Below are positions 10,188 to 49,069 of a stretch of DNA of 64,000 nucleotides, piece after piece. Below the pieces are notes generated by a model, which saw only the letters and a list, made by a program, of their open reading frames with translations, did no database searches and had not been told where the DNA came from. The first letter of the stretch is position 1, and every line of letters starts with the position of its first letter. The stretch comes from Tupaia tana (Eukaryota; Chordata; Mammalia; Scandentia; Tupaiidae). The DNA lies in assembly GCA_026018925.1 (NCBI GenBank), contig JAKSZU010000210.1:62001-126000 (forward strand), given 5' to 3'. A program made the position numbers and the translations under genes.

Positions 10188-10203
10188 TCTCCTGCCTGGG
10201 AGA
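10188..10203. repeat. Short inverted repeat with 6-base loop
   Basis: TCTCC, loop TGCCTG, GGAGA: a 5-bp stem that is present in nearly all monomers. Subtype changes such as CGCTCC or TCCTTCC sit at the stem edge or in the loop. The stem is too short to be a confident structural element. Confidence 0.4.
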
Positions 10204-10270
10204 AAGGAGCAGAAGGGCTTATTAACAAAACAAAAGATGGAGGTGAGAGCCAGAGAGAAATTCTACCTTT

Positions 10271-10307: not shown

Positions 10308-10308
10308 T

Positions 10309-10376
10309 GAGGAGACAGGAGCAGAGAGAGACAGAGACCTCAGAGACACAGAGACAGGGATAGAAGGCCAGAGGGG
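10309..10376 (+). repeat. Purine-rich (GAGACA/CAGAGA) tract of the monomer
   Basis: This 68-bp stretch is 81% purine on the + strand by hand count (13 pyrimidines). It is made of degenerate GAGACA, CAGAGA and GACAGG words, which look like an old microsatellite built into the monomer. It recurs once per monomer and, with the A-tracts, gives the array its strand asymmetry. Scattered C and T interruptions argue against a long perfect mirror repeat. Confidence 0.75.
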
Positions 10377-13300: not shown

Positions 13301-14221
13301 CTTCTCAGAGAATGGCTCAACGCTCCTACCTGGGAGAAATGAGCAGAAGGGCTTATTAACAAAACAAAAGATGGAGCTGAGAGCCAGAGAGAAATTTTAT
13401 CTTTAAAAAAATCGTAAAAAGGAAAATTACCAAAAAATTGAGGAGAGAGGAGCAGAGAGAGACAGAGACCTCAGAGACACAGAGACAGGGATAGAAGGCC
13501 AGAGGGGCTCCCTACCACACTAGCTTTGCTTGCTGGAGGCTGAATTATGAGTAGAAAATCTTCATTTCGCCTGTGCCCTGAAATATCTAGTTCCCAGTAT
13601 CCATGTGGAATTTTCTCAGAGAATGGCTCAACTCTCCTGCCTGGGAGAAAGGAGCAGAAGGGCTTATTAACAAAACAGATGATGGAGCAGAGGGCCAGAG
13701 AGAAATTCTACATTTAAAAAAATCGTAAAAAGGAAAAATTACCAAAAAAAATGAGGAGTCAGGAGCAGAGAGAGACAGAGACCTCAGAGACTCAGAGACA
13801 GGGATAGAAGGCCAGAGGGGCTCCCTACCACACTAGCTTTGCTTGCTGGAGGCTGAATTATGAGTAGCAAATCTTCATTTCGCCTGTGCCCTGAAATATC
13901 TAGTTCCCAGTGTCCATATGGAAACTTCTCAGAGAATGGCTCAACTCTCCTGCCTGGGAGAAAGGAGCAGAAGGGCTTCTTAACAAAACAAAAGATGGAG
14001 CTGAGAGCCAGAGAGAAATACTACCTTTAAAATAATCGTAAAAATGGAAAACTACCAAAAAAAAATGAGGAGACAGGAGCAGAGAGAGACAGAGACCTCA
14101 GAGACACAGAGACAGGGATAGAAGGCCAGAGGGGCTCCCTACCACACTAGCTTTGCTTGCTGCAGGCTGAATTATGAGTAGAAAATCTTCATTTCGCCTG
14201 TGCCCTGAAATATCTAGTTCC

Positions 14222-17200
14222 CAGTATCCATGTGGAATCTTCTCAGAGAATGGCTCAACTCTCCTGCCTGGGAGAAAGGAGCAGAAGGGCTTATTAACAA
14301 AACAAAAGATGGAGGTGAGAGCCAGAGAGAAATTCTACCTTTAAAAAAATCGTAAAAAGGAAAAATTACCAAAAAAAAATGAGGAGACAGGAGCAGAGAG
14401 AGACAGAGACCTCAGAGACACAAAGACAGGGATAGAAGGCCAGAGGGGCTCCCTACCACACTAGTTTTGCTTGCTAGAGGCTGAATTATGAGTAGAAATT
14501 CTTAATTTCGCGTGTGCCCTGAAATATCTAGTTCCCAGTATCCATGTGAAATCTTCTCAGAGAATGGCTCAATGCTCCTGCCTGGGAGAATGGAGCAGAA
14601 GGGCTTATTAACAAAACTAAAGATGGAGCTGAGTGCCAGAGAGAAATTCTACCTTTAAAAAAATCGTAAAAAGGAAAAATTACCAAAAAAATATGAGGAG
14701 ACAGGAGCAGAGAGAGACAGAGAACCCAGAGACACAGAGACAGGGATAGAAGGCCAGAGGGGCTCCCTACCACACTAGCTTTGCTTGCTGGAGGCTGAAT
14801 TATGAGTAGAAAATCTTCATTTCGCCTGTGCCCTGAAATATCTAGTTCCCAGTATCCATGTGGAACCTTCTCAGACAATGGCTCAACTCTCCTGCCTGGG
14901 AGAAAGGAGCAGAAGGGCTTATTAACAAAACAAAAGATGGAGCTGAGAGCCAGAGAGAAATTCTACCTTTCAAAAAATCGTAAAAGGAAAAATTACCAAA
15001 AAAATAAGGAGGAGACAGGAGCAGAGAGAGACAGAGATCTCAGAGACACAGAGACAGGTATAGAAGGCCAGAGGGGCTCCCTACCACACTAGCTTTGCTT
15101 GCTGGAGGCTGAATTTTGAGTAGAAAATCTTCATTTCGCCTGTGCCCTTAAATATCTAGTTCCCAGTATCCATGTGGAATCTTCTCAGAGAATGGCTCAA
15201 CGCTCCTGCCTGTGAGAAATGAGCAGAAGGGCTTATTAACAAAACAAAAGATGGAGCTGAGAGCCAGAGAGAAATTCTACATTTAAAGAAATCGTAAAAG
15301 GAAAAAATTACTAAAAAAAATGAGGGGACAGGAGCAGAGCGAGGCAGAGACCTCAGAGACACAGAGACAGGGATAGATGGCCAGAGGGGCTCCCTACCAC
15401 ACTAGCTTTGCTGGCTGGAGGCTGAATTATGAGTAGAAAATCTTCATTTCGCCTGTGCCCTGAAATATCTAGTTCCCATTATCCATGTGGAATCTTCTCA
15501 GAGAATGGCTCAACTCTCTTGCCTGGGAGAAAGGAGCAGAAGGGCTTATTAACAAAACAAAAGATGGAGCTGAGAGCCAGAGAGAAATTCTACCTTTAAA
15601 AAAATCGTAAAAAGGAAAAATTACCAAAAAATTGAGGAGACAGGAGCAGAGAGAGACAGAGACCTCAGAGACACAGAGACAGGGATAGAAGGCCAGAGGG
15701 GCTCCCTACCACACTAGCTTTGCTTGCTGGAGGCTGAATTATGAGTAGAAAATCTTCATTTCGCCTGTGCCCTGAAATATCTAGTTCCCAGTATCCCTGT
15801 GGAACCTTCTCAGTGAATGGCTCAACTCTCTTGCCTGGGAGAAAGGAGCAGAAGGGCTTATTAACAAAACAGAAGATGGAGCAGAGGGCCAGAGAGAAAT
15901 TCTACATTTAAAAAAATCGTAAAAAGGAAAAATTACCAAAAAAAATGAGGAGTCAGGAGCAGAGAGAGACAGAGAAATCAGAGACTCAGGAGACAGTGAT
16001 AGAAGGCCAGAGGGGCTCCCTACCACACTAGCTTTGCTTGCTGGAGGCTGAATTATGAGTAGAAAATCTTCATTTCGCCTGTGCCCTGAAATATCTAGTT
16101 CCCAGTGTCCATATGGAATCTTCTCAGAGAATGGCTCAACTCTCCTGCCTGGGAGAAAGGAGCAGAAGGGCTTATTAACAAAACAAAAGATGGAGCTGAG
16201 AGCCAGAGAGAAATACTACCTTTAAAATAATCGTAAAAATGGAAAACTACCAAAAAAAAAATGAGGAGCCAGGAGCAGAGAGAGACAGAGACCTCAGAGA
16301 CACAGAGACAGGGATAGAAGGCCAGAGGGGCTCACTACCACACTAGCTTTGCTTGCTGCAGGCTGAAATATGAGTAGAAAATCTTCATTTCGCCTGTGCC
16401 CTGAAATATCTAGTTCCAGTATCCATGTGGAATCTTCACAGAGAATGGCTCAACTCTCCTGCCTGGGAGAATGGAGCAGAAGGGCTTATTAACAAACCAA
16501 AAGATGGAGCTGAGAGCCAGAGAGAAATTGTACCTTTAAAAAAATCGTTAAAAGGAAAAAATTAACAAAAAATGAGGAGACAGGAGCAGAGAGAGACAGA
16601 GAACTCAGAGACACAGAGACAGGGATAGAAGGCCTGAGGGGCTCCCTACCACACTAGCTTTGCTGGCTAGAGGCTGAATTATGAGTAGAACATCTTCATT
16701 TCGCCTGTGCCCTGAAATATCTAGTTCCCATTATCCATGTGGAAACTTCTCAGAGAATGGCTCATCTCTCCTCCCTGGGAGAAAGGAGCAGAAGGGCTTA
16801 TTAACAAAACAAAAGATGGAGCTGAGAGCCAGAGAGAAATTATACCTTTAAAAAAATCGTAAAAAGGAAAAATTACCAAAAAAAATAAGGAGGAGACAGG
16901 AGCAGAGAGAGACAGAGACCTCAGAGACACAGAGACAGGGATAGAAGGCCAGAGGGGCTCCCTACCACACTAGCTTTGCTTGCTGGAGGCTGAATTTTGA
17001 GTAGAAAATCTTCATTTCGCCTGTGCCCTGAAATATCTAGTTCCCAGTATCCATGTGGAATCTTCTCAGAGAATGGCTCAACGCTCCTACCTGGGAGAAA
17101 GGAGCAGAAGAGCTTATTAACAAAACAAAAGATGGAGCTGAGAGCCAGAGAGAAATACTACCTTTAAAATAATCGTAAAAATGGAAAACTACCAAAAAAA

Positions 17201-17359
17201 AAATGAGGAGACAGGAGCAGAGAGAGACAGAGACCTCAGAGACACAGAGACAGGGATAGAAGGCCAGAGGGGCTCCCTACCACACTAGCTTTGCTTGCTG
17301 CAGGCTGAATTATGAGTAGAAAATCTTCATTTCGCCTGTGCCCTGAAATATCTAGTTCC
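14222..17359 (+). repeat. Sub-unit a of copy 1 (10 monomers, 3.14 kb)
   Basis: The order is 2 (right half), 3, T, 4, 5, 6, 7, 8, then two hybrid monomers, then the start of the next type 2. The hybrid at about 16,680-16,940 begins as type 9 (AACATC, CATTATCC, GGCTCATCTC) and ends like type 11 (AATAAGGAGGAGAC). The next begins as type 12 (TTTTGAG, CGCTCCTACC at 17,090) and ends like type 1 (AAATACTACC, AAAATAATCG, GGAAAACTACC). Compared with the 13-monomer block plus T, this fits the loss of two monomers at each hybrid. Confidence 0.75.
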
Positions 17360-20191
17360 CAGTATCCATGTGGAATCTTCTCAGAGAATGGCTCAACTCT
17401 CCTGCCTGGGAGAAAGGAGCAGAAGGGCTTATTAACAAAACAAAAGATGGAGGTGAGAGCCAGAGAGAAATTCTACCTTTAAAAAAATCGTAAAAAGGAA
17501 AAATTACCAAAAAAAAATGAGGAGACAGGAGCAGAGAGAGACAGAGACCTCAGAGACACAGAGACAGGGATAGAAGGCCAGAGGGGCTCCCTACCACACT
17601 AGTTTTGCTTGCTAGAGGCTGAATTATGAGTAGAAATTCTTAATTTCGCGTGTGCCCTGAAATATCTAGTTCCCAGTATCCATGTGAAATCTTCTCAGAG
17701 AATGGCTCAATGCTCCTGCCTGGGAGAATGGAGCAGAAGGGCTTATTAACAAAACAAAAGATGGAGCTGAGTGCCAGAGAGAAATTCTACCTTTAAAAAA
17801 AATCGTAAAAAGGAAAAATTACCAAAAAAAATATGGGGAGACAGGTGCAGAGAGAGACAGAGAACCCAGAGACACAGAGACAGGGATAGAAGGCCAGAGG
17901 GGCTCCCTACCACACTAGCTTTGCTTGCTGGAAGCTGAATTATGAGTAGAAAATCTTCATTTCGCCTGTGCCCTGAAATATCTAGTTCCCAGTATCCATG
18001 TGGAACCTTCTCAGACAATGGCTCAACTCTCCTGCCTGGGAGAAAGGAGCAGAAGGGGCTTATTAACAAAACAAAAGATGGAGCTGAGAGCCAGAGAGAA
18101 ATTCTACCTTTCAAAAAATCGTAAAAAGGAAAAATTACCAAAAAAATAAGGAGGAGACAGGAGCAGAGAGAGACAGAGACCTCAGAGACACAGAGACAGG
18201 GATAGAAGTCCAGAGGGGCTCCCTATCACACTAGCTTTGCTTGCTGGAGGCTGAATTTTGAGTAGAAAATCTTCATTTCGCCTGTGCCCTGAAATATCTA
18301 GTTCCCAGTATCCATGTGGAAACTTCTCAGAGAATGGCTCAACTCTCCTTCCTGGGAGAAATGAGCAGAAGGGCTTATTAACAAAACAAAAGATGGAGCT
18401 GAGAGCCAGAGAGAAATTCTACCTTTAAAAAAACCGTAAAAAGGAAAAATTACCAAAAAAAATGAGGAGACAGGAGCAGAGAGAGACAGAGACCTCAGAG
18501 ACACAGAGACAGGGATAGAAGGCCAGAGGGGCTCCCTACCACACTAGCTTTGCTTGCTGGAGGCTGAATTATGAGTAGAAAATCTTCATTTCGCCTGTGC
18601 CCTGAAATATCTAGTTCCCATTATCCATGTGGAATCTTCTCAGAGAATGGCTCAACTCTCCTGCCTGGGAGAAAGGAGCAGAAGGGGCTTATTAACAAAA
18701 CAAAAGATGGAGCTGAGAGCCAGAGAGAAATTCTACCTTTAAAAAAATCGTAAAAAGGAAAAATTAAGAAAAAATTGAGGAGACAGGAGCAGAGAGAGAC
18801 AGAGACCTCAGAGACACAGAGACAGGGATAGAAGGCCAGAGGGGCTCCCTACCACACTAGCTTTGCTTGCTGGAGGCTGAATTATGAGTAGAAAATCTTC
18901 ATTTCGCCTGTGCCCTGAGATATCTAGTTCCCAGTGTCCATATGGAATCTTCTCAGAGAATGGCTCAACTCTCCTGCCTGGGAGAAAGGAGCAGAAGGGC
19001 TTAATAACAAAACAAAAGATGGAGCTGAGAGCCAGAGAGAAATACTACTTTTAAAATAATCGTAAAAATGGAAAACTACCAAAAATAATGAGGAGACAGG
19101 AGCAGAGAGAGACAGAGTACTCAGAGACACAGAGACAGGGATAGAAGGCCAGAGGGGCTCCCTACCACACTAGTTTTGCTTGCTAGAGGCTGAATTATGA
19201 GTAGAAATTCTTCATTTCGCCTGTGCCCTGAAATATCTAGTTCCCAGTATCCATGTGAAATCTTCTCAGAGAATGGCTCAAAGCTCCTGCCTGGGAGAAT
19301 GGAGCAGAAGTGCTTATTAACAAAAACAAAAGATGGAGCTGAGAGCCAGAGAGAAATTCTACCTTTAAAAAAATCGTAAAAGGAAAAATTACCAAAAAAA
19401 AATAAGGAGGAGACAGGAGCAGAGAGAGACAGAGACCTCAGAGACACAGAGACAGGGATAGAAGGCCAGAGGGGCTCCCTACCACACTAGCTTTGCTTGC
19501 TGGAGGCTGAATTATGAGTAGAAAATCTTCATTTCGCCTGTGCCCTGAAATATCTAGTTCCCAGTATCCATGTGGAATTTTCTCAGAGAATGGCTCAACT
19601 CTCCTGCCTGGGAGAAAGGAGCAGAAGGGCTTATTAACAAAACAGATGATGGAGCAGAGGGCCAGAGAGAAATTCTACATTTAAAAAAATCGTAAAAAGG
19701 AAAAATTACCAAAAAAAATGAGGAGTCAGGAGCAGAGAGAGACAGAGACCTCAGAGACTCAGAGACAGTGATAGAAGGCCAGAGGGGCTCCCTACCACAC
19801 TAGCTTTGCTTGCTGGAGGCTGAATTATGAGTAGCAAATCTTCATTTCGCCTGTGCCCTGAAATATCTAGTTCCCAGTGTCCATATGGAATCTTCTCAGA
19901 GAATGGCTCAACTCTCCTGCCTGGGAGAAAGGAGCAGAAGGGCTTCTTAACAAAACAAAAGATGGAGCTGAGAGCCAGAGAGAAATACTACCTTTAAAAT
20001 AATCGTAAAAATGGAAAACTACCAAAAAAAAAATGAGGAGACAGGAGCAGAGAGAGACAGAGACCCTCAGAGACACAGAGACAGGGATAGAAGGCCAGAG
20101 GGGCTCCCTACCCACACTAGCTTTGCTTGCTGCAGGCTGAATTATGAGTAGAAAATCTTCATTTCGCCTGTGCCCTGAAATATCTAGTTCC
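17360..20191 (+). repeat. Sub-unit b of copy 1 (9 monomers, 2.83 kb)
   Basis: The order is 2, 3, T, a type-4 relative (TTTTGAG with GGAAACTTCTC and CTCCTTCC), a 5/9 hybrid, 10, 11, 13, 1. The hybrid (about 18,540-18,850) begins like type 5 (AAAATC, CATTATCC, GGAATCTTC, CAACTCTCCTGCC) and ends like type 9 (TTAAGAAAAAATTG at 18,764), as expected if types 6-8 were removed. Type 12 is also missing. Confidence 0.75.
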
Positions 20192-23019
20192 CAGTATCCA
20201 TGTGGAACCTTCTCAGAGAATGGCTCAACTCTACTGCCTGGGAGAAAGGAGCAGAAGGGCTTATTAACAAAACAAAAGATGGAGGTGAGAGCCAGAGAGA
20301 AATTCTACCTTTAAAAAAATCGTAAAAAGGAAAAATTACCAAAAAAAAATGAGGAGACAGGAGCAGAGAGAGACAGAGACCTCAGAGACACAGAGACAGG
20401 GATAGAAGGCCAGAGGGGCTCCCTACCACACTAGTTTTGCTTGCTAGAGGCTGAATTATGAGTAGAAATTCTTAATTTCGCGTGTGCCCTGAAATATCTA
20501 GTTCCCAGTATCCATGTGAAATCTTCTCAGAGAATGGCTCAATGCTCCTGCCTGGGAGAATGGAGCAGAAGGGCTTATTAACAAAACAAAAGATGGAGCT
20601 GAGTGCCAGAGAGAAATTCTACCTTTAAAAAAATCGTAAAAAGGAAAAATTACCAAAAAAATATGAGGAGACAGGAGCAGAGAGAGACAGAGAACCCAGA
20701 GACACAGAGACAGGGATAGAAGGCCAGAGGGGCTCCCTACCACACTAGCTTTGCCTGCTGGAGGCTGAATTATGAGTAGAAAATCTTCATTTCGCCTGTG
20801 CCCTGAAATATCTAGTTCCCAGTATCCATGTGGAACCTTCTCAGACAATGGCTCAACTCTCCTGCCTGGGAGAAAGGAGCAGAAGGGCTTATTAACAAAA
20901 CAAAAGATGGAGCTGAGAGCCAGAGAGAAATTCTACCTTTCAAAAAATCGTAAAAAGGAAAAATTACCAAAAAAATAAGGAGGAGACAGGAGCAGAGAGA
21001 GACAGAGACCTCAGAGACACAGAGACAGGGATAGAAGTCCAGAGGGGCTCCCTATCACACTAGCTTTTGCTTGCTGGAGGCTGAATTTTGAGTAGAAAAT
21101 CTTCATTTCGCCTGTGCCCTGAAATATCTAGTTCCCAGTATCCATGTGGAAACTTCTCAGAGAATGGCTCAACTCTCCTTCCTGGGAGAAATGAGCAGAA
21201 GGGCTTATTAACAAAACAAAAGATGGAGCTGAGAGCCAGAGAGAAATTCTACCTTTAAAAAAAATCGTAAAAAGGAAAAATTACCAAAAAAAATGAGGAG
21301 ACAGGAGCAGAGAGAGACAGGGACCTCAGAGACACAGAGACAGGGATAGAAGGCCAGAGGGGCTCCCTACCACACTAGCTTTGCTTGCTGGAGGCTGAAT
21401 TATGAGTAGAAAATCTTCATTTCGCCTGTGCCCTGAAATATCTAGTTCCCATTATCCATGTGGAATCTTCTCAGAGAATGGCTCAACTCTCCTGCCTGGG
21501 AGAAAGGAGCAGAAGGGCTTATTAACAAAACAAAAGATGGAGCTGAGAGCCAGAGAGAAATTCTACCTTTAAAAAAATCGTAAAAAGGAAAAATTAAGAA
21601 AAAATTGAGGAGACAGGAGCAGAGAGAGACAGAGACCTCAGAGACACAGAGACAGGGATAGAAGGCCAGAGGGGCTCCCTACCACACTAGCTTTGCTTGC
21701 TGGAGGCTGAATTATGAGTAGAAAATCTTCATTTCGCCTGTGTCCTGAGATATCTGTTTCCCAGTGTCCATATGGAATCTTCTCAGAGAATGGCTCAACT
21801 CTCCTGCCTGGGAGAAAGGAGCAGAAGGGCTTAATAACAAAACAAAAGATGGAGCTGAGAGCCAGAGAGAAATACTACTTTTAAAATAATCGTAAAAATG
21901 GAAAAACTACCAAAAATAATGAGGAGACAGGAGCAGAGAGAGACAGAGTACTCAGAGACACAGAGACAGGGATAGAAGGCCAGAGGGGCTCCCTACCACA
22001 CTAGTTTTGCTTGCTAGAGGCTGAATTATGAGTAGAAATTCTTCATTTCGCCTGTGCCCTGAAATATCTAGTTCCCAGTATCCATGTGAAATCTTCTCAG
22101 AGAATGGCTCAACGCTCCTGCCTGGGAGAATGGAGCAGAAGTGCTTATTAACAAAACAAAAGATGGAGCTGAGAGCCAGAGAGAAATTCTACCTTTAAAA
22201 AAATCGTAAAAAGGAAAAATTACCAAAAAAAATAAGGAGGAGACAGGAGCAGAGAGAGACAGAGACCTCAGAGACACAGAGACAGGGATAGAAGGCCAGA
22301 GGGGCTCCCTACCACACTAGCTTTGCTTGCTGGAGGCTGAATTATGAGTAGAAAATCTTCATTTCGCCTGTGCCCCTGAAATATCTAGTTCCCAGTATCC
22401 ATGTGAATTTTCTCAGAGAATGGCTCAACTCTCCTGCCTGGGAGAAAGGAGCAGAAGGGCTTATTAACAAAACAGATGATGGAGCAGAGGGCCAGAGAGA
22501 AATTCTACATTAAAAAAATCGTAAAAAGGAAAAATTACCAAAAAAAATGAGGAGTCAGGAGCAGAGAGAGACAGAGACCTCAGAGACTCAGAGACAGTGA
22601 TAGAAGGCCAGAGGGGCTCCCTACCACACTAGCTTTGCTTGCTGGGAGGCTGAATTATGAGTAGCAAATCTTCATTTCGCCTGTGCCCTGAAATATCTAG
22701 TTCCCAGTGTCCATATGGAATATTCTCAGAGAATGGCTCAACTCTCCTGCCTGGGAGAAAGGAGCAGAAGGGCTTCTTAACAAAACAAAAGATGGAGCTG
22801 AGAGCCAGAGAGAAATACTACCTTTAAAATAATCGTAAAAATGGAAAACTACCAAAAAAAAAATGAGGAGACAGGAGCAGAGAGAGACAGAGACCTCAGA
22901 GACACAGAGACAGGGATAGAAGGCCAGAGGGGCTCCCTACCACACTAGCTTTGCTTGCTGCAGGCTGAATTATGAGTAGAAAATCTTCATTTCGCCTGTG
23001 CCCTGAAATATCTAGTTCC
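20192..23019 (+). repeat. Sub-unit b' of copy 1 (9 monomers, 2.83 kb)
   Basis: A near-identical neighbour of sub-unit b, offset 2,830 bp, with the same monomer order. Marks that separate it from b in all three copies include CTCTACTGCC in its first monomer (20,230), TGTCCTGAGATATCTGTTTC in the type-10 monomer (21,741) and GGAATATTCTC in type 1 in at least copies 1 and 2 (22,717). These shared marks show that b and b' were separate before the 37-monomer unit was multiplied. Confidence 0.8.
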
Positions 23020-25839
23020 CAGTATCCATGTGGAATCTTCTCAGAGAATGGCTCAACTCTCCTGCCTGGGAGAAAGGAGCAGAAGGGCTTATTAACAAAA
23101 CAAAAGATGGAGGTGAGAGCCAGAGAGAAATTCTACCTTTAAAAAAAATCGTAAAAAGGAAAAATTACCAAAAAAAAATGAGGAGACAGGAGCAGAGAGA
23201 GACAGAGACCTCAGAGACACAGAGACAGGGATAGAAGGCCAGAGGGGCTCCCTACCACACTAGTTTTGCTTGCTAGAGGCTGAATTATGAGTAGAAATTC
23301 TTAATTTCGCGTGTGCCCTGAAATATCTAGTTCCCAGTATCCATGTGAAATCTTCTCAGAGAATGGCTCAATGCTCCTGCCTGGGAGAATGGAGCAGAAG
23401 GGCTTATTAACAAAACAAAAGATGGAGCTGAGTGCCAGAGAGAAATTCTACCTTTAAAAAAATCGTAAAAAGGAAAAATTACCAAAAAAATATGAGGAGA
23501 CAGGAGCAGAGAGAGACAGAGAACCCAGAGACACAGGAGACAGGGATAGAAGGCCAGAGGGGCTCCCTACCACACTAGCTTTGCCTGCTGGAGGCTGAAT
23601 TATGAGTAGAAAATCTTCATTTCGCCTGTGCCCTGAAATATCTAGTTCCCAGTATCCATGTGGAACCTTCTCAGACAATGGCTCAACTCTCCTGCCTGGG
23701 AGAAAGGAGCAGAAGGGCTTATTAACAAAACAAAAGATGGAGCTGAGAGCCAGAGAGAAATTCTACCTTTCAAAAAATCGTAAAAAGGAAAAATTACCAA
23801 AAAAATAAGGAGGAGACAGGAGCAGAGAGAGACAGAGACCTCAGAGACACAGAGACAGGGATAGAAGTCCAGAGGGGCTCCCTATCACACTAGCTTTGCT
23901 TGCTGGAGGCTGAATTTTGAGTAGAAAATCTTCATTTCGCCTGTGCCCTGAAATATCTAGTTCCCAGTATCCATGTGGAAACTTCTCAGAGAATGGCTCA
24001 ACTCTCCTTCCTGGGAGAAATGAGCAGAAGGGCTTATTAACAAAACAAAAGATGGAGCTGAGAGCCAGAGAGAAATTCTACCTTTAAAGAAATCGTAAAA
24101 AGGAAAAATTACCAAAAAAAATGAGGAGACAGGAGCAGGGAAGGGCAGTGACCTCAGAGACACAGAGACAGGGATAGAAGGCCAGAGGGGCTCCCTACCA
24201 CACTAGCTTTGCTTGCTGGAGGCTGAATTATGAGTAGAAAATCTTCATTTCGCCTGTGCCCTGAAATATCTAGTTCCCATTATCCATGTGGAATCTTCTC
24301 AGAGAATGGCTCAACTCTCCTGCCTGGGAGAAAGGAGCAGAAGGGCTTATTAACAAAACAAAAGATGGAGCTGAGAGCCAGAGAGAAATTCTATCTTTAA
24401 AAAAATCGTAAAAGGAAAAATTACCAAAAAATTGAGGAGACAGGAGCAGAGAGATACAGAGACCTCAGAGACACAGAGACAGGGATAGAAGGCCAGAGGG
24501 GCTCCCTACCACACTAGCTTTGCTTGCTGGACGCTGAATTATGAGTAGAAAATCTTCATTTCGCCTGTGCCCTGAAATATCTAGTTCCCAGTATCCATGT
24601 GGAATCTTCTCAGAGAATGGCTCAACGCTCCTGCCTGGGAGAAAGGAGCAGAAGGGCTTATTAACAAAACAAAAGATGGATCTGAGAGCCAGAGAGAAAT
24701 TCTACCTTTAAAAAATCGTAAAAAGGATAAATTACCAAAAAAAAAATGAGGAGACAGGAGCAGAGAGAGACAGAGACCTCAGAGACACAGAGACAGGGAT
24801 AGAAGGCCAGAGGGGCTCCCTCCCACACTAGCTTTGCTTGCTGGAGGCTGAATTATGAGTAGAAAATCTTCATTTCGCCTGTGCCCTGAAATATCTAGTT
24901 CCCAGTATCTATGAGGAAACTTCTCAGAGAATGGCTCAACTCTCCTGCCTGGGAGAAAGGAGCAGAAGGGCTTATTAACAAAACAAAAGATGGAGCTGAG
25001 AGCCAGAGAGAAATTCTACCTTTAAAAAAATCATAAAAAGGAAAATTACCAAAAAAATGAGGAGACAGGAGCAGAGAGAGACAGAGACCTCAGAGACACA
25101 GAGACAGGGATAGAAGGCCAGAGGGGCTCCCTACCACACTAGCTTTGCTTGCTGGAGGCTGAATTATGAGTAGAAAATCTTCATTTCGCCTGTGCCCTGA
25201 AATATCTAGTTCCCAGTGTCCATATGAAATCTTCTCAGAGAATGGCTCAACTCTCCTGCCTGGAGAAAGGAGCATAAGGGCTTATTAACAAAACAAAAGA
25301 TGGAGCTGAGAGCCAGAGAGAAATGCTACCTTTAAAATAATCGTAAAAATGGAAAACTACCAAAAAAAATGAGGAGACAGGAGCAGAGAGAGACAGAGAA
25401 CTCAGAGACACAGAGACAGGGATAGAAGGCCAGAGGGGCTCCCTACCACACTAGCTTTGCTTGCTGCAGGCTGAATTATGAGTAGAAACTCTTCATTTCG
25501 CCTGGGCCCTGAAATATCTAGTTCCCAGTATCCATGTGGAATCTTCACAGAGAATGGCTCAACTCTCCTGCCTGGGAGAATGGAGCAGAAGGGCTCATTA
25601 ACAAACCAAAAGATGGAGCTGAGTGCCAGAGAGAAATTGTACCTTTAAAAAAAATCGTAAAAAGGAAAAATTAACAAAAAAAATGAGGAGACAGGAGCAG
25701 AGAGAGACAGAGAACTCAGAGACAAAGAGACAGGGATAGAAGGCATGAGGGGCTCCCTACCACACTAGCTTTGCTTGCTAGAGGCTGAATTATGAGTAGA
25801 ACATCTTCATTTCGCCTGTGCCCTGAAATATCTAGTTCC
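23020..25839 (+). repeat. Sub-unit c of copy 1 (9 monomers, 2.82 kb)
   Basis: It starts like b (types 2, 3, T, the type-4 relative, a CATTATCC monomer) and then leaves the core family. The next monomers are x (TGGACGCTG at 24,529, with GGATCTGAG), y (CTCCCTCCCAC with CTATGAGG, 24,820-24,920), z (GTGTCCATATGAAATC with GAGCATAAG, 25,216-25,280) and type A (25,486). The y and A monomers also occur in the flanks at 1-760 and 48,700-49,400. A clustered change, GCAGGGAAGGGCAGTGACC, at 24,136 replaces the usual GCAGAGAGAGACAGAGACC and marks this sub-unit. Confidence 0.75.
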
Positions 25840-25840
25840 C
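25802..25840 (+). repeat. Copy 1/copy 2 junction: unequal-exchange interval
   Basis: The monomer here is a hybrid. Its left part (CTAGAGG, GAACATC) matches the monomer at the right edge of the core (49,032). Its right part (TTCCCAGTATCC ... GGAGGTGAGAG) matches the type-2 monomer at the left edge (14,222 onward). The two parents are identical over the 37 bases between C25,802 and C25,840, so the exchange lies there. A private C-to-A change just downstream (TCCTGACTGGG, about 25,884) is shared with the second junction and absent from both parents. Confidence 0.85.
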
Positions 25841-37450: not shown

Positions 37451-37451
37451 C
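37413..37451 (+). repeat. Copy 2/copy 3 junction: same hybrid monomer
   Basis: The same hybrid as at 25,802-25,840: GAACATC on the left, TTCCCAGTATCC on the right, TCCTGACTGGG at about 37,495, then GGAGGTGAGAG. Identity of the two junctions, including the private C-to-A change, indicates that one original exchange product was later copied, rather than two independent exchanges. Confidence 0.85.
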
Positions 37452-40400
37452 AGTATCCATGTGGAATCTTCTCAGAGAATGGCTCAACTCTCCTGACTGG
37501 GAGAAAGGAGCAGAAGGGCTTATTAACAAAACAAAAGATGGAGGTGAGAGCCAGAGAGAAATTCTACCTTTAAAAAAATCGTAAAAAGGAAAAATTACCA
37601 AAAAAAAAATGAGGAGACAGGAGCAGAGAGAGACAGAGACCTCAGAGACACAAAGACAGGGATAGAAGGCCAGAGGGGCTCCCTACCACACTAGTTTTGC
37701 TTGCTAGAGGCTGAATTATGAGTAGAAATTCTTAATTTCGCGTGTGCCCTGAAATATCTAGTTCCCAGTATCCATGTGAAATCTTCTCAGAGAATGGCTC
37801 AATGCTCCTGCCTGGGAGAATGGAGCAGAAGGGCCTTATTAACAAAACTAAAGATGGAGCTGAGTGCCAGAGAGAAATTCTACCTTTAAAAAAATCGTAA
37901 AAAGGAAAAATTACCAAAAAAATATGAGGAGACAGGAGCAGAGAGAGACAGAGAACCCAGAGACACAGAGACAGGGATAGAAGGCCAGAGGGGCTCCCTA
38001 CCACACTAGCTTTGCTTGCTGGAGGCTGAATTATGAGTAGAAAATCTTCATTTCGCCTGTGCCCTGAAATATCTAGTTCCCAGTATCCATGTGGAACCTT
38101 CTCAGACAATGGCTCAACTCTCCTGCCTGGGAGAAAGGAGCAGAAGGGCTTATTAACAAAACAAAAGATGGAGCTGAGAGCCAGAGAGAAATTCTACCTT
38201 TCAAAAAATCGTAAAAAGGAAAAATTACCAAAAAAATAAGGAGGAGACAGGAGCAGAGAGAGACAGAGATCTCAGAGACACAGAGACAGGTATAGAAGGC
38301 CAGAGGGGCTCCCTACCACACTAGCTTTGCTTGCTGGAGGCTGAATTTTGAGTAGAAAATCTTCATTTCGCCTGTGCCCTTAAATATCTAGTTCCCAGTA
38401 TCCATGTGGAATCTTCTCAGAGAATGGCTTCAACGCTCCTGCCTGTGAGAAATGAGCAGAAGGGCTTATTAACAAAACAAAAGATGGAGCTGAGAGCCAG
38501 AGAGAAATTCTACATTTAAAGAAATCGTAAAAAGGAAAAATTACTAAAAAAAATGAGGGGACAGGAGCAGAGCGAGGCAGAGACCTCAGAGACACAGAGA
38601 CAGGGATAGATGGCCAGAGGGGCTCCCTACCACACTAGCTTTGCTGGCTGGAGGCTGAATTATGAGTAGAAAATCTTCATTTCGCCTGTGCCCTGAAATA
38701 TCTAGTTCCCATTATCCATGTGGAATCTTCTCAGAGAATGGCTCAACTCTCTTGCCTGGGAGAAAGGAGCAGAAGGGCTTATTAACAAAACAAAAGATGG
38801 AGCTGAGAGCCAGAGAGAAATTCTACCTTTAAAAAAATCGTAAAAAGGAAAAATTACCAAAAAATTGAGGAGACAGGAGCAGAGAGAGACAGAGACCTCA
38901 GAGACACAGAGACAGGGATAGAAGGCCAGAGGGGCTCCCTACCACACTAGCTTTGCTTGCTGGAGGCTGAATTATGAGTAGAAAATCTTCATTTCGCCCT
39001 GTGCCCTGAAATATCTAGTTCCCAGTATCCCTGTGGAACCTTCTCAGTGAATGGCTCAACTCTCTTGCCTGGGAGAAAGGAGCAGAAGGGCTTATTAACA
39101 AAACAGAAGATGGAGCAGAGGGCCAGAGAGAAATTCTACATTTAAAAAAATCGTAAAAAGGAAAAATTACCAAAAAAAAATGAGGAGTCAGGAGCAGAGA
39201 GAGACAGAGAAATCAGAGACTCAGAGACAGTGATAGAAGGCCAGAGGGGCTCCCTACCACACTAGCTTTGCTTGCTGGAGGCTGAATTATGAGTAGAAAA
39301 TCTTCATTTCGCCTGTGCCCTGAAATATCTAGTTCCCAGTGTCCATATGGAATCTTCTCAGAGAATGGCTCAACTCTCCTGCCTGGGAGAAAGGAGCAGA
39401 AGGGCTTATTAACAAAACAAAAGATGGAGCTGAGAGCCAGAGAGAAATACTACCTTTAAAATAATCGTAAAAATGGAAAACTACCAAAAAAAAAATGAGG
39501 AGCCAGGAGCAGAGAGAGACAGAGACCTCAGAGACACAGAGACAGGGATAGAAGGCCAGAGGGGCTCACTACCACACTAGCTTTGCTTGCTGCAGGCTGA
39601 AATATGAGTAGAAAATCTTCATTTCGCCTGTGCCCTGAAATATCTAGTTCCAGTATCCATGTGGAATCTTCACAGAGAATGGCTCAACTCTCCTGCCTGG
39701 GAGAATGGAGCAGAAGGGCTTATTAACAAACCAAAAGATGGAGCTGAGAGCCAGAGAGAAATTGTACCTTTAAAAAAATCGTTAAAAGGAAAAATTAACA
39801 AAAAAATGAGGAGACAGGAGCAGAGAGAGACAGAGAACTCAGAGACACAGAGACAGGGATAGAAGGCCTGAGGGGCTCCCTACCACACTAGCTTTGCTGG
39901 CTAGAGGCTGAATTATGAGTAGAACATCTTCATTTCGCCTGTGCCCTGAAATATCTAGTTCCCATTATCCATGTGGAAACTTCTCAGAGAATGGCTCATC
40001 TCTCCTCCCTGGGAGAAAGGAGCAGAAGGGCTTATTAACAAAACAAAAGATGGAGCTGAGAGCCAGAGAGAAATTATACCTTTAAAAAAATCGTAAAAAG
40101 GAAAAAATTACCAAAAAAAATAAGGAGGAGACAGGAGCAGAGAGAGACAGAGACCTCAGAGACACAGAGACAGGGATAGAAGGCCAGAGGGGCTCCCTAC
40201 CACACTAGCTTTGCTTGCTGGAGGCTGAATTTTGAGTAGAAAATCTTCATTTCGCCTGTGCCCTGAAATATCTAGTTCCCAGTATCCATGTGGAATCTTC
40301 TCAGAGAATGGCTCAACGCTCCTACCTGGGAGAAAGGAGCAGAAGAGCTTATTAACAAAACAAAAGATGGAGCTGAGAGCCAGAGAGAAATACTACCTTT

Positions 40401-43400
40401 AAAATAATCGTAAAAATGGAAAACTACCAAAAAAAAATGAGGAGACAGGAGCAGAGAGAGACAGAGACCTCAGAGACACAGAGACAGGGATAGAAGGCCA
40501 GAGGGGCTCCCTACCACACTAGCTTTGCTTGCTGCAGGCTGAATTATGAGTAGAAAATCTTCATTTCGCCTGTGCCCTGAAATATCTAGTTCCCAGTATC
40601 CATGTGGAATCTTCTCAGAGAATGGCTCAACTCTCCTGCCTGGGAGAAAGGAGCAGAAGGGCTTATTAACAAAACAAAAGATGGAGGTGAGAGCCAGAGA
40701 GAAATTCTACCTTTAAAAAAATCGTAAAAAGGAAAAATTACCAAAAAAAAAATGAGGAGACAGGAGCAGAGAGAGACAGAGACCTCAGAGACACAGAGAC
40801 AGGGATAGAAGGCCAGAGGGGCTCCCTACCACACTAGTTTTGCTTGCTAGAGGCTGAATTATGAGTAGAAATTCTTAATTTCGCGTGTGCCCTGAAATAT
40901 CTAGTTCCCAGTATCCATGTGAAATCTTCTCAGAGAATGGCTCAATGCTCCTGCCTGGGAGAATGGAGCAGAAGGGCTTATTAACAAAACAAAAAGATGG
41001 AGCTGAGTGCCAGAGAGAAATTCTACCTTTAAAAAAATCGTAAAAAGGAAAAATTACCAAAAAAATATGGGGAGACAGGTGCAGAGAGAGACAGAGAACC
41101 CAGAGACACAGAGACAGGGATAGAAGGCCAGAGGGGCTCCCTACCACACTAGCTTTGCTTGCTGGAAGCTGAATTATGAGTAGAAAATCTTCATTTCGCC
41201 TGTGCCCTGAAATATCTAGTTCCCAGTATCCATGTGGAACCTTCTCAGACAATGGCTCAACTCTCCTGCCTGGGAGAAAGGAGCAGAAGGGCTTATTAAC
41301 AAAACAAAAGATGGAGCTGAGAGCCAGAGAGAAATTCTACCTTTCAAAAAATCGTAAAAAGGAAAAATTACCAAAAAAATAAGGAGGAGACAGGAGCAGA
41401 GAGAGACAGAGACCTCAGAGACACAGAGACAGGGATAGAAGTCCAGAGGGGCTCCCTATCACACTAGCTTTGCTTGCTGGAGGCTGAATTTTGAGTAGAA
41501 AAATCTTCATTTCGCCTGTGCCCTGAAATATCTAGTTCCCAGTATCCATGTGGAAACTTCTCAGAGAATGGCTCAACTCTCCTTCCTGGGAGAAATGAGC
41601 AGAAGGGCTTATTAACAAAACAAAAGATGGAGCTGAGAGCCAGAGAGAAATTCTACCTTTAAAAAAACCGTAAAAAGGAAAAATTACCAAAAAAAATGAG
41701 GAGACAGGAGCAGAGAGAGACAGAGACCTCAGAGACACAGAGACAGGGATAGAAGGCCAGAGGGGCTCCCTACCACACTAGCTTTGCTTGCTGGAGGCTG
41801 AATTATGAGTAGAAAATCTTCATTTCGCCTGTGCCCTGAAATATCTAGTTCCCATTATCCATGTGGAATCTTCTCAGAGAATGGCTCAACTCTCCTGCCT
41901 GGGAGAAAGGAGCAGAAGGGCTTATTAACAAAACAAAAGATGGAGCTGAGAGCCAGAGAGAAATTCTACCTTTAAAAAAATCGTAAAAAGGAAAAATTAA
42001 GAAAAAATTGAGGAGACAGGAGCAGAGAGAGACAGAGACCTCAGAGACACAGAGACAGGGATAGAAGGCCAGAGGGGCTCCCTACCACACTAGCTTTGCT
42101 TGCTGGAGGCTGAATTATGAGTAGAAAATCTTCATTTCGCCTGTGCCCTGAGATATCTAGTTCCCAGTGTCCATATGGAATCTTCTCAGAGAATGGCTCA
42201 ACTCTCCTGCCTGGGAGAAAGGAGCAGAAGGGCTTAATAACAAAACAAAAGATGGAGCTGAGAGCCAGAGAGAAATACTACTTTTAAAATAATCGTAAAA
42301 ATGGAAAACTACCAAAAATAATGAGGAGACAGGAGCAGAGAGAGACAGAGTACTCAGAGACACAGAGACAGGGATAGAAGGCCAGAGGGGCTCCCTACCA
42401 CACTAGTTTTGCTTGCTAGAGGCTGAATTATGAGTAGAAATTCTTCATTTCGCCTGTGCCCTGAAATATCTAGTTCCCAGTATCCATGTGAAATCTTCTC
42501 AGAGAATGGCTCAAAGCTCCTGCCTGGGAGAATGGAGCAGAAGTGCTTATTAACAAAACAAAAGATGGAGCTGAGAGCCAGAGAGAAATTCTACCTTTAA
42601 AAAAATCGTAAAAAGGAAAAATTACCAAAAAAAATAAGGAGGAGACAGGAGCAGAGAGAGACAGAGACCTCAGAGACACAGAGACAGGGATAGAAGGCCA
42701 GAGGGGCTCCCTACCACACTAGCTTTGCTTGCTGGAGGCTGAATTATGAGTAGAAAATCTTCATTTCGCCTGTGCCCTGAAATATCTAGTTCCCAGTATC
42801 CATGTGGAATTTTCTCAGAGAATGGCTCAACTCTCCTGCCTGGGAGAAAGGAGCAGAAGGGCTTATTAACAAAACAGATGATGGAGCAGAGGGCCAGAGA
42901 GAAATTCTACATTTAAAAAAATCGTAAAAAGGAAAAATTACCAAAAAAAATGAGGAGTCAGGAGCAGAGAGAGACAGAGACCTCAGAGACTCAGAGACAG
43001 TGATAGAAGGCCAGAGGGGCTCCCTACCACACTAGCTTTGCTTGCTGGAGGCTGAATTATGAGTAGCAAATCTTCATTTCGCCTGTGCCCTGAAATATCT
43101 AGTTCCCAGTGTCCATATGGAATCTTCTCAGAGAATGGCTCAACTCTCCTGCCTGGGAGAAAGGAGCAGAAGGGCTTCTTAACAAAACAAAAGATGGAGC
43201 TGAGAGCCAGAGAGAAATACTACCTTTAAAATAATCGTAAAAATGGAAAACTACCAAAAAAAAAATGAGGAGACAGGAGCAGAGAGAGACAGAGACCTCA
43301 GAGACACAGAGACAGGGATAGAAGGCCAGAGGGGCTCCCTACCACACTAGCTTTGCTTGCTGCAGGCTGAATTATGAGTAGAAAATCTTCATTTCGCCTG

Positions 43401-46400
43401 TGCCCTGAAATATCTAGTTCCCAGTATCCATGTGGAACCTTCTCAGAGAATGGCTCAACTCTACTGCCTGGGAGAAAGGAGCAGAAGGGCTTATTAACAA
43501 AACAAAAGATGGAGGTGAGAGCCAGAGAGAAATTCTACCTTTAAAAAAATCGTAAAAAGGAAAAATTACCAAAAAAAAATGAGGAGACAGGAGCAGAGAG
43601 AGACAGAGACCTCAGAGACACAGAGACAGGGATAGAAGGCCAGAGGGGCTCCCTACCACACTAGTTTTGCTTGCTAGAGGCTGAATTATGAGTAGAAATT
43701 CTTAATTTCGCGTGTGCCCTGAAATATCTAGTTCCCAGTATCCATGTGAAATCTTCTCAGAGAATGGCTCAATGCTCCTGCCTGGGAGAATGGAGCAGAA
43801 GGGCTTATTAACAAAACAAAAGATGGAGCTGAGTGCCAGAGAGAAATTCTACCTTTAAAAAAATCGTAAAAAGGAAAAATTACCAAAAAAATATGAGGAG
43901 ACAGGAGCAGAGAGAGACAGAGAACCCAGAGACACAGAGACAGGGATAGAAGGCCAGAGGGGCTCCCTACCACACTAGCTTTGCCTGCTGGAGGCTGAAT
44001 TATGAGTAGAAAATCTTCATTTCGCCTGTGCCCTGAAATATCTAGTTCCCAGTATCCATGTGGAACCTTCTCAGACAATGGCTCAACTCTCCTGCCTGGG
44101 AGAAAGGAGCAGAAGGGCTTATTAACAAAACAAAAGATGGAGCTGAGAGCCAGAGAGAAATTCTACCTTTCAAAAAATCGTAAAAAGGAAAAATTACCAA
44201 AAAAATAAGGAGGAGACAGGAGCAGAGAGAGACAGAGACCTCAGAGACACAGAGACAGGGATAGAAGTCCAGAGGGGCTCCCTATCACACTAGCTTTGCT
44301 TGCTGGAGGCTGAATTTTGAGTAGAAAATCTTCATTTCGCCTGTGCCCTGAAATATCTAGTTCCCAGTATCCATGTGGAAACTTCTCAGAGAATGGCTCA
44401 ACTCTCCTTCCTGGGAGAAATGAGCAGAAGGGCTTATTAACAAAACAAAAGATGGAGCTGAGAGCCAGAGAGAAATTCTACCTTTAAAAAAATCGTAAAA
44501 AGGAAAAATTACCAAAAAAAATGAGGAGACAGGAGCAGAGAGAGACAGGGACCTCAGAGACACAGAGACAGGGATAGAAGGCCAGAGGGGCTCCCTACCA
44601 CACTAGCTTTGCTTGCTGGAGGCTGAATTATGAGTAGAAAATCTTCATTTCGCCTGTGCCCTGAAATATCTAGTTCCCATTATCCATGTGGAATCTTCTC
44701 AGAGAATGGCTCAACTCTCCTGCCTGGGAGAAAGGAGCAGAAGGGCTTATTAACAAAACAAAAGATGGAGCTGAGAGCCAGAGAGAAATTCTACCTTTAA
44801 AAAAATCGTAAAAAGGAAAAATTAAGAAAAAATTGAGGAGACAGGAGCAGAGAGAGACAGAGACCTCAGAGACACAGAGACAGGGATAGAAGGCCAGAGG
44901 GGCTCCCTACCACACTAGCTTTGCTTGCTGGAGGCTGAATTATGAGTAGAAAATCTTCATTTCGCCTGTGTCCTGAGATATCTGTTTCCCAGTGTCCATA
45001 TGGAATCTTCTCAGAGAATGGCTCAACTCTCCTGCCTGGGAGAAAGGAGCAGAAGGGCTTAATAACAAAACAAAAGATGGAGCTGAGAGCCAGAGAGAAA
45101 TACTACTTTTAAAATAATCGTAAAAATGGAAAACTACCAAAAATAATGAGGAGACAGGAGCAGAGAGAGACAGAGTACTCAGAGACACAGAGACAGGGAT
45201 AGAAGGCCAGAGGGGCTCCCTACCACACTAGTTTTGCTTGCTAGAGGCTGAATTATGAGTAGAAATTCTTCATTTCGCCTGTGCCCTGAAATATCTAGTT
45301 CCCAGTATCCATGTGAAATCTTCTCAGAGAATGGCTCAACGCTCCTGCCTGGGAGAATGGAGCAGAAGTGCTTATTAACAAAACAAAAGATGGAGCTGAG
45401 AGCCAGAGAGAAATTCTACCTTTAAAAAAATCGTAAAAAGGAAAAATTACCAAAAAAAATAAGGAGGAGACAGGAGCAGAGAGAGACAGAGACCTCAGAG
45501 ACACAGAGACAGGGATAGAAGGCCAGAGGGGCTCCCTACCACACTAGCTTTGCTTGCTGGAGGCTGAATTATGAGTAGAAAATCTTCATTTCGCCTGTGC
45601 CCTGAAATATCTAGTTCCCAGTATCCATGTGGAATTTTCTCAGAGAATGGCTCAACTCTCCTGCCTGGGAGAAAGGAGCAGAAGGGCTTATTAACAAAAC
45701 AGATGATGGAGCAGAGGGCCAGAGAGAAATTCTACATTTAAAAAAATCGTAAAAAGGAAAAATTACCAAAAAAAATGAGGAGTCAGGAGCAGAGAGAGAC
45801 AGAGACCTCAGAGACTCAGAGACAGTGATAGAAGGCCAGAGGGGCTCCCTACCACACTAGCTTTGCTTGCTGGAGGCTGAATTATGAGTAGCAAATCTTC
45901 ATTTCGCCTGTGCCCTGAAATATCTAGTTCCCAGTGTCCATATGGAATATTCTCAGAGAATGGCTCAACTCTCCTGCCTGGGAGAAAGGAGCAGAAGGGC
46001 TTCTTAACAAAACAAAAGATGGAGCTGAGAGCCAGAGAGAAATACTACCTTTAAAATAATCGTAAAAATGGAAAACTACCAAAAAAAAAAATGAGGAGAC
46101 AGGAGCAGAGAGAGACAGAGACCTCAGAGACACAGAGACAGGGATAGAAGGCCAGAGGGGCTCCCTACCACACTAGCTTTGCTTGCTGCAGGCTGAATTA
46201 TGAGTAGAAAATCTTCATTTCGCCTGTGCCCTGAAATATCTAGTTCCCAGTATCCATGTGGAATCTTCTCAGAGAATGGCTCAACTCTCCTGCCTGGGAG
46301 AAAGGAGCAGAAGGGCTTATTAACAAAACAAAAGATGGAGGTGAGAGCCAGAGAGAAATTCTACCTTTAAAAAAATCGTAAAAAGGAAAAATTACCAAAA

Positions 46401-49069
46401 AAAAATGAGGAGACAGGAGCAGAGAGAGACAGAGACCTCAGAGACACAGAGACAGGGATAGAAGGCCAGAGGGGCTCCCTACCACACTAGTTTTGCTTGC
46501 TAGAGGCTGAATTATGAGTAGAAATTCTTAATTTCGCGTGTGCCCTGAAATATCTAGTTCCCAGTATCCATGTGAAATCTTCTCAGAGAATGGCTCAATG
46601 CTCCTGCCTGGGAGAATGGAGCAGAAGGGCTTATTAACAAAACAAAAGATGGAGCTGAGTGCCAGAGAGAAATTCTACCTTTAAAAAAATCGTAAAAAGG
46701 AAAAATTACCAAAAAAATATGAGGAGACAGGAGCAGAGAGAGACAGAGAACCCAGAGACACAGAGACAGGGATAGAAGGCCAGAGGGGCTCCCTACCACA
46801 CTAGCTTTGCCTGCTGGAGGCTGAATTATGAGTAGAAAATCTTCATTTCGCCTGTGCCCTGAAATATCTAGTTCCCAGTATCCATGTGGAACCTTCTCAG
46901 ACAATGGCTCAACTCTCCTGCCTGGGAGAAAGGAGCAGAAGGGCTTATTAACAAAACAAAAGATGGAGCTGAGAGCCAGAGAGAAATTCTACCTTTCAAA
47001 AAATCGTAAAAAGGAAAAATTACCAAAAAAATAAGGAGGAGACAGGAGCAGAGAGAGACAGAGACCTCAGAGACACAGAGACAGGGATAGAAGTCCAGAG
47101 GGGCTCCCTATCACACTAGCTTTGCTTGCTGGAGGCTGAATTTTGAGTAGAAAATCTTCATTTCGCCTGTGCCCTGAAATATCTAGTTCCCAGTATCCAT
47201 GTGGAAACTTCTCAGAGAATGGCTCAACTCTCCTTCCTGGGAGAAATGAGCAGAAGGGCTTATTAACAAAACAAAAGATGGAGCTGAGAGCCAGAGAGAA
47301 ATTCTACCTTTAAAGAAATCGTAAAAAGGAAAAATTACCAAAAAAAATGAGGAGACAGGAGCAGGGAAGGGCAGTGACCTCAGAGACACAGAGACAGGGA
47401 TAGAAGGCCAGAGGGGCTCCCTACCACACTAGCTTTGCTTGCTGGAGGCTGAATTATGAGTAGAAAATCTTCATTTCGCCTGTGCCCTGAAATATCTAGT
47501 TCCCATTATCCATGTGGAATCTTCTCAGAGAATGGCTCAACTCTCCTGCCTGGGAGAAAGGAGCAGAAGGGCTTATTAACAAAACAAAAGATGGAGCTGA
47601 GAGCCAGAGAGAAATTCTATCTTTAAAAAAATCGTAAAAAGGAAAAATTACCAAAAAATTGAGGAGACAGGAGCAGAGAGATACAGAGACCTCAGAGACA
47701 CAGAGACAGGGATAGAAGGCCAGAGGGGCTCCCTACCACACTAGCTTTGCTTGCTGGACGCTGAATTATGAGTAGAAAATCTTCATTTCGCCTGTGCCCT
47801 GAAATATCTAGTTCCCAGTATCCATGTGGAATCTTCTCAGAGAATGGCTCAACGCTCCTGCCTGGGAGAAAGGAGCAGAAGGGCTTATTAACAAAACAAA
47901 AGATGGATCTGAGAGCCAGAGAGAAATTCTACCTTTAAAAAAATCGTAAAAAGGATAAATTACCAAAAAAAAAATGAGGAGACAGGAGCAGAGAGAGACA
48001 GAGACCTCAGAGACACAGAGACAGGGATAGAAGGCCAGAGGGGCTCCCTCCCACACTAGCTTTGCTTGCTGGAGGCTGAATTATGAGTAGAAAATCTTCA
48101 TTTCGCCTGTGCCCTGAAATATCTAGTTCCCAGTATCTATGAGGAAACTTCTCAGAGAATGGCTCAACTCTCCTGCCTGGGAGAAAGGAGCAGAAGGGCT
48201 TATTAACAAAACAAAAGATGGAGCTGAGAGCCAGAGAGAAATTCTACCTTTAAAAAAATCATAAAAAGGAAAATTACCAAAAAAATGAGGAGACAGGAGC
48301 AGAGAGAGACAGAGACCTCAGAGACACAGAGACAGGGATAGAAGGCCAGAGGGGCTCCCTACCACACTAGCTTTGCTTGCTGGAGGCTGAATTATGAGTA
48401 GAAAATCTTCATTTCGCCTGTGCCCTGAAATATCTAGTTCCCAGTGTCCATATGAAATCTTCTCAGAGAATGGCTCAACTCTCCTGCCTGGGAGAAAGGA
48501 GCATAAGGGCTTATTAACAAAACAAAAGATGGAGCTGAGAGCCAGAGAGAAATGCTACCTTTAAAATAATCGTAAAAATGGAAAACTACCAAAAAAAAAT
48601 GAGGAGACAGGAGCAGAGAGAGACAGAGAACTCAGAGACACAGAGACAGGGATAGAAGGCCAGAGGGGCTCCCTACCACACTAGCTTTGCTTGCTGCAGG
48701 CTGAATTATGAGTAGAAACTCTTCATTTCGCCTGGGCCCTGAAATATCTAGTTCCCAGTATCCATGTGGAATCTTCACAGAGAATGGCTCAACTCTCCTG
48801 CCTGGGAGAATGGAGCAGAAGGGCTCATTAACAAACCAAAAGATGGAGCTGAGTGCCAGAGAGAAATTGTACCTTTAAAAAAAATCGTAAAAAGGAAAAA
48901 TTAACAAAAAAAATGAGGAGACAGGAGCAGAGAGAGACAGAGAACTCAGAGACAAAGAGACAGGGATAGAAGGCATGAGGGGCTCCCTACCACACTAGCT
49001 TTGCTTGCTAGAGGCTGAATTATGAGTAGAACATCTTCATTTCGCCTGTGCCCTGAAATATCTAGTTCC
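37451..49069 (+). repeat. Core HOR unit, copy 3 (37 monomers, 11.6 kb)
   Basis: Sub-units: a 37,451-40,593, b 40,594-43,421, b' 43,422-46,247, c 46,248-49,069. T monomers sit at 38,033, 41,176, 44,002 and 46,828, so the 10-9-9-9 rhythm is kept. The copy ends within 49,032-49,070, where the sequence continues as TTCCTGGTATCC, the un-recombined parent, instead of the hybrid. Private one-base indels continue to about 41,500 and then almost stop. Confidence 0.9.

Follow-up and report, generated by a model that had tools for sequence, protein, structure and literature searches.

Three tandem copies of a 37-monomer stretch in a 313-bp satellite array of Tupaia tana: a probable recent local triplication

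How does a higher-order repeat begin? Long higher-order arrays are usually met only after much homogenisation, when the founding event can no longer be read. This question is raised anew by a stretch of 64,000 nucleotides from Tupaia tana (NCBI GenBank assembly GCA_026018925.1, contig JAKSZU010000210.1, positions 62,001 to 126,000 of the forward strand; below referred to as the window), in which a 313-bp tandem satellite contains a block of three consecutive, nearly identical units of 37 monomers each. According to our analysis, this block probably arose recently, when a stretch of 37 monomers (11.6 kb) was locally triplicated in tandem within a large 313-bp satellite array made up of small local duplications. 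Support comes from an uninterrupted run of 73 monomers that match at a lag of 37, from three whole units with near-zero substitutions between them, from hybrid monomers at their junctions which share an A not present in either parent, and from fixed differences within an internal duplication (b/b') that is common to all units.

The satellite fills all 64,000 bases of the window with 204 monomers, which are arranged head-to-tail on the + strand and have a mean pairwise identity of 94.3%. When identity is averaged by monomer lag, lag 37 reaches 96.55% versus 94.1–94.2% at lags 36 and 38, with 95.4% at lag 9 and 95.2% at lag 28; an offset near 11.6 kb thus gives higher identity than these other multiples of the monomer. 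At a threshold of at least 97.2% identity, the lag-37 matches form a single run of 73 monomers (against no more than 5, whichever lag was taken, when the monomer order was shuffled 200 times), which starts sharply at about 14.2 kb and stops sharply at 49.07 kb, the rest of the window being at background at this lag. With the right-hand limit of the crossover zone described below taken as the boundary of block and units, the block spans 34,848 bp, i.e. 3 × 11,616, and divides into three whole units:

1..64000, + strand: 313-bp satellite array, 204 monomers (repeat finding and monomer cutting)
14222..25839, + strand: U1, first 37-monomer unit, 11,618 bp (crossover-zone register)
25840..37450, + strand: U2, second 37-monomer unit, 11,611 bp (lag-37 copy, crossover-zone register)
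37451..49069, + strand: U3, third 37-monomer unit, 11,619 bp (lag-37 copy, crossover-zone register)

An earlier sequence-only reading of the window had proposed three tandem 37-monomer units of 11.6 kb at 14,222–49,069, and both the units and these coordinates are borne out. A start at 14,267, obtained on first extension, was rejected, because the extension had halted at the private A described below and the crossover zone gives 14,222.

How the units were joined can be read from the diagnostic alignment columns of four monomers, two at the outer edges of the block and two at the junctions inside it:

14102..14415, + strand: L, left-edge parent monomer, matching the 3' part of the junction hybrid
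25720..26033, + strand: J1, in-register hybrid at the U1/U2 junction, with the switch at about 25,803–25,839 and a private A at 25,885
37331..37645, + strand: J2, the same hybrid at the U2/U3 junction, with the same private A at 37,496
48950..49262, + strand: X, right-edge parent monomer, matching the 5' part of the hybrid

In J1 as well as in J2, the 5' columns are those of X at the end of U3 (six of six) and the 3' columns are those of L at the start of U1 (six of six), with one switch between alignment columns 89 and 129, a zone of about 37 bp. Twelve of 12 diagnostic columns with a single switch, at both junctions, are what a product of homologous unequal exchange should display, and J1 and J2 are, to judge from their sequence, the expected trace of in-register unequal exchange between misaligned monomers. 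Such exchange also fits the array at large. Our reading of the 325,424-base contig (C321; the genome comprises 2.95 Gb in 1,198 contigs) covered its first 166 kb plus two short stretches; these 166 kb consist of satellite without a break, and their 529 monomers are all 308–317 bp long, none of them truncated or over-long, as in-register exchange predicts. Furthermore, J1 and J2 both carry A where both parents have C, an A that occurs in only 4 of the 529 monomers, J1 and J2 included. In a genome-wide search with the junction monomer, in which the best 40 of 1,678 candidates were scored, J1 and J2 were the only matches at 99% or more, and the next best, at 98%, lie in the same contig. Monomer X itself is 100% identical to the monomer at 315–627. 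The shared A is suggestive of an order of events in which a first duplication was followed by the C-to-A change and then by a second duplication.

Inside the units, marker monomers recur at spacings of 3142, 2831, 2828, 2813 / 3137, 2828, 2828, 2826 / 3143, 2825, 2826 bp when recomputed from monomer starts, within a few bases of the values noted before. The sub-unit pattern of 10-9-9-9 monomers that had been derived from them is real as a spacing of markers, but it does not reflect four homologous sub-units, as only b and b' are whole-length copies of each other:

15357..18498, + strand: a, 10-monomer stretch ahead of b in U1; the marker and the last four monomers match b, the others are near background
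18499..21329, + strand: b, 9-monomer sub-unit in U1 (marker register)
21330..24157, + strand: b', 9-monomer sub-unit in U1, 98.9% identical to b (marker register)
24158..26970, + strand: c, 9-monomer stretch after b', extending into U2 (marker register)

Over their nine monomers, b and b' are 98.9, 99.2 and 99.5% identical in U1, U2 and U3, respectively, whereas means are 96.4–96.7% for a against b and 94.8–95.8% for c against b, high identity being confined to the marker and a handful of further monomers; c matches b at the marker and two later monomers in U1 and U2, and at the marker only in U3. The lag-9 run comprises 14 monomers, i.e. about 2.6 copies of a 9-mer, and the 37 monomers of a unit represent about 22 types at a 2% cut and 25 at a 1% cut. 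Nested periodicity, as originally claimed, is supported at 313 bp, at 11.6 kb and, for b/b', at about 2.83 kb. What separates b from b' is a set of 13 substitutions (about 0.46%) that is identical in all three units; the only other b/b' pattern, of four columns in U1, was dismissed as a gap artefact. Since these 13 differences are fixed across the copies, and the units are only 0–1 substitution apart, the b/b' duplication preceded the triplication, in agreement with the initial proposal that b was duplicated before the block was multiplied.

The similarity of the three copies was assessed after homopolymer collapse, which leaves compressed lengths of 8206 (U1), 8207 (U2) and 8207 (U3). Over 11.6 kb, U1 and U3 then show one difference, a C to A substitution; U2 and U3 show no substitution and two dinucleotide indels, both in U2; and U1 and U2 show one substitution plus the two dinucleotide indels. 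The statement that the copies differ by scattered single-base changes only is thus not correct: compared with U3 there is 0–1 substitution, and the remainder is homopolymer length and two dinucleotide indels. Homopolymer-length differences, which make up nearly all of those between the copies, would pass for mutations if they were counted as such. Alignment artefacts can likewise simulate divergence. A whole-unit MAFFT alignment of the three copies was discarded, as it had slipped by whole monomers and yielded false identities of 97.7–98.9%. The 10, 7 and 17 substitutions in a monomer-registered alignment were also rejected as real copy differences, with the 10 apparent substitutions of U1 being discounted because gap columns were misplaced next to indels and the 7 of U3 because the last monomer in that register runs into the right flank. 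Gene conversion as a source of the variant clusters in U1 was dropped too, with none of the 529 monomers carrying any of the three apparent variant sets.

Is the block a sample of an array-wide higher-order repeat, a status that the sequence-only reading had implied? In 166 kb, we found 53 runs of at least six monomers at 97.2% identity or more, the block being the longest of them and the youngest among the duplications compared for homopolymer run length. In 27 of these runs, which lie at contig positions 1–60,000 and 126,001–166,000 and at window positions 1–14,221 and 49,070–64,000, neither copy is in the block. They exhibit 20 periods between 6 and 96 monomers, none of which dominates: 26 runs cover 19 periods other than 37, and the remaining one, at period 37, is a separate 7-monomer match. 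As counted, such runs are non-independent events; 249 of the 417 monomers outside the block fall into one of them. Two genome searches with block queries, in which the best 40 of 2,669 and the best 40 of 1,831 candidates were scored, gave matches of at least 97% only at 54–109 kb of this contig, a span that takes in about 22 kb on the left side of the block. Block-specific compressed 60-mers occupy 0–78 positions in thirteen other satellite stretches, two of them on the same contig, versus 2,654 in the unit. Lag 37 was not among the eight best lags or the six longest runs listed for contigs C764 (95 monomers) and C381 (63 monomers), the two of six other-contig pieces that were long enough for this test. 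Where it was read, the array is pieced together from small local duplications; the many other periods outside the block and the lack of block copies elsewhere among the stretches examined speak for the 37-monomer unit as a local feature and against it as the higher-order repeat of the array.

An older and larger duplication, which partly overlaps the window, has a copy on either side of the triplication:

1..4384, + strand: right end of the older flank copy (contig 57,928–66,384) of the U3 end and the monomers following it, 99.6% identical over 27 monomers
44558..53017, + strand: matching flank copy, i.e. the U3 end and the monomers after it, at an offset of 155 monomers (end approximate)

This 27-monomer flank pair stands on both sides of the triplication, and with two units subtracted its offset before the triplication would have been about 81 monomers. 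On another contig (C381:74543–124774), matches to the block query recur at about 3.13 kb, i.e. 10 monomers, in three pairs, which hints at a different local repeat.

A scenario in four steps would account for the block. An initial duplication of a 9-monomer stretch, reflected in the fixed differences, would have generated b and b'. Sister arrays would then have paired 37 monomers out of step, and an in-register exchange within a monomer would have produced the hybrid along with two tandem units; for this step the junction is directly observed, whereas the enzymology is what we infer. A C-to-A change, for which the one shared site speaks, would have followed in the hybrid monomer, and a misalignment by one whole unit may finally have created the third copy, thereby doubling the changed hybrid. 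Smith's unequal crossover model of 1976 reportedly predicts duplications that keep the monomer register and vary in period, along with hybrid junctions, and our data show no departure from it. The block would represent ordinary satellite turnover, at a point from which continued amplification would give rise to a higher-order repeat, and it is probably without a function of its own.

Other histories can be envisaged. If the unit were the established higher-order repeat of the chromosome's centromere, with the window covering no more than a short piece of a long, homogeneous array, the unit size and recurring monomer types, which resemble those of large primate higher-order repeats, as well as the very high identity between copies would find a ready explanation; yet lag-37 identity ends at both edges of the block, and neither the 60-mer counts nor the confinement of the matches of at least 97% among the scored candidates agrees with such an array, which renders this idea very unlikely. 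Less remote, if still rather unlikely in our view, is that the extra copies arose via break-induced replication or template switching instead of a sister-chromatid crossover. The new substitution, at a distance of 46 bp from the switch-zone edge, would fit error-prone synthesis, the identical junctions would fit one template being re-used repeatedly, and human arrays reportedly expand in cells undergoing break-induced replication (PMC11034957). Unequal crossover, however, would equally leave whole units and one clean switch in register, and sequence alone cannot separate the two.

A third alternative concerns the assembly, i.e. that there are in fact fewer or more copies, most likely two, and that the assembler or polisher passed through a repeat loop too often or too rarely. 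Several observations weigh against a triplication in this respect. Besides the near-identity of the copies at the substitution level, run-length differences in otherwise identical monomers are frequent in the block (44 in 35 monomers for U1–U2, 18 in 34 for U2–U3 and 38 in 36 for U1–U3) compared with 4 in 40 identical monomers, all from one comparison, in the eight comparisons with neither copy in the block. The 11 comparisons of other duplications in the contig, with b/b' excluded, gave 2–32 compressed differences and 12 run-length differences per 61 identical monomers; b and b' within the block differ at 18–19 compressed sites and by 10, 8 and 4 run lengths in five identical monomers each. 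Assigned by majority, private run-length differences number 30 in U1, 12 in U2 and 6 in U3 and are all confined to 14,982–41,499 (36 monomers examined, two omitted for dinucleotide indels; a 37-monomer version with three omitted gave the same counts). Moreover, rare insertions are in excess in the block, with 26 in 111 monomers versus 19 in 418 elsewhere (ratio 5.2, binomial p 8e-8), although they do occur outside it, e.g. at window 628–3,758 and at contig 156,686. Finally, the proposed order of the steps depends on a single substitution and is suggestive for this reason. As older duplications outside the block show few run-length differences, those between the copies are more likely consensus error than mutation; the block consensus thus looks unreliable, and the copy number may be off and is to be confirmed with reads. 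The segment 14,982–41,499 is a possible patch of poorer consensus, with its private run lengths and an approximately 5-fold rise in insertions but not in deletions.

On the other hand, one would not expect a misjoin alone to yield an in-register hybrid with a substitution absent from both parents, the run-length differences are private to each copy, which means that the copies are more than one sequence pasted repeatedly, and core columns of the block show no excess of deletions (16 in 111 monomers versus 119 in 418). These counterpoints favour at least two real copies and weigh less for the third. An error in copy number is unlikely overall; the hybrid junction speaks for the reality of at least two copies, while exactly three are less secure, since the differences between them resemble consensus error.

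Returning to a recent local triplication as the preferred interpretation, one may ask how it relates to known repeat systems. As in a higher-order repeat in Willard's sense, the copies are far more alike than the monomers (at least 99.99% by substitution versus 94.3%), but the monomer types are not all distinct, with about 22 types among 37 monomers at the 2% cut. Recurrence of monomer types within the unit, as seen for the monomers of b and b' and for the marker, is instead a feature of cascading higher-order repeats. Large nested or cascading repeats are known in human and orangutan (PMC11050224, PMC12428378), and these papers describe alpha-satellite units that are similar to ours in being large and in having recurring monomer types and sub-periods (here 9). 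Their monomers, however, are 171 bp long and not 313 bp, a period that also sets the present satellite apart from alpha satellite as such, with its monomer of about 171 bp. Moreover, they form many-copy arrays, a trait of the published cases considered that lies outside their stated definition: human chromosome 15 has units present 429 and 164 times, and the orangutan Y 58-mer is present 67 times, compared with three copies here, with none further in the stretches examined or among the scored candidates and no spread across the array where it was examined. Locally nested repeats of human centromeres, proposed as a seeding stage of new landscapes (PMC11652271), likewise involve the local expansion of a sub-unit; in the human case, this occurs inside a primary repeat, whereas the surrounding stretches examined here are without a dominant repeat. 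J1 and J2 also resemble human alpha-satellite hybrid monomers, in which parts of two monomers are fused and length is usually conserved (PMC9549924). In contrast to those hybrids, both parents are found here at the edges of the same block, and the founding exchange is directly readable for this reason. With nested and cascading repeats, local nesting and hybrid monomers already described, the block is a well-preserved case of an already known kind of repeat growth.

Whether it can even be taken as a higher-order repeat caught at birth is a closer matter. Three copies, a founding crossover that can be placed within about 37 bp, a mark that orders the first and second amplification in time, and an array without a dominant higher-order repeat where examined would all be in line with this notion, to which we give slightly less than an even chance. 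The parents, the hybrid and the likely order of steps are still readable, which allows the unequal-exchange model to be put to a concrete test at a single locus, and if the copies are real and variable between individuals, the earliest steps of repeat growth would become directly measurable.

Beyond the block, the satellite is also present at 236–246 kb of the contig and at the contig end, as well as in at least 32 contigs (names among the matches listed in three genome searches), and 282 monomers in pieces of six other contigs are 94–95% identical to those of this contig. Globin exons of the genome suggest a placental mammal as its source, the best solved-structure matches being 3fh9 for the beta exon and, behind six double-length entries, 5eui for the alpha exon. 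It is plausible that the array is (peri)centromeric. The core box bound by CENP-B is NTTCGNNNNANNCGGGN; in the window it had no match with up to one mismatch, with 1.7 expected by chance. Among centromeres, that of the cattle Y has higher-order repeats and that of the cattle X does not, according to PMC12663436. A shorter repeat was not found inside the 313-bp monomer (best cyclic self-identity 33% at lags 20–156), nor were inverted repeats of at least 20 bp in window 1–3,200, the part tested for them, and no Rfam family matched one 37-monomer unit at the gathering score. Literature searches by the 313-bp period, without the species name, matched this satellite to no publication; among the papers listed, one on the human X mentions 313 bp once. 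The two CpG sites of the monomer are intact in 730 (90%) and 714 (88%) of 811 monomers, both values being below the mean column agreement of 97% and thus giving no sign of special CpG retention. Near the right end of the window, at 63001–63043, the repeat finder detected a 17-bp GA-rich tandem run of 2.6 copies.

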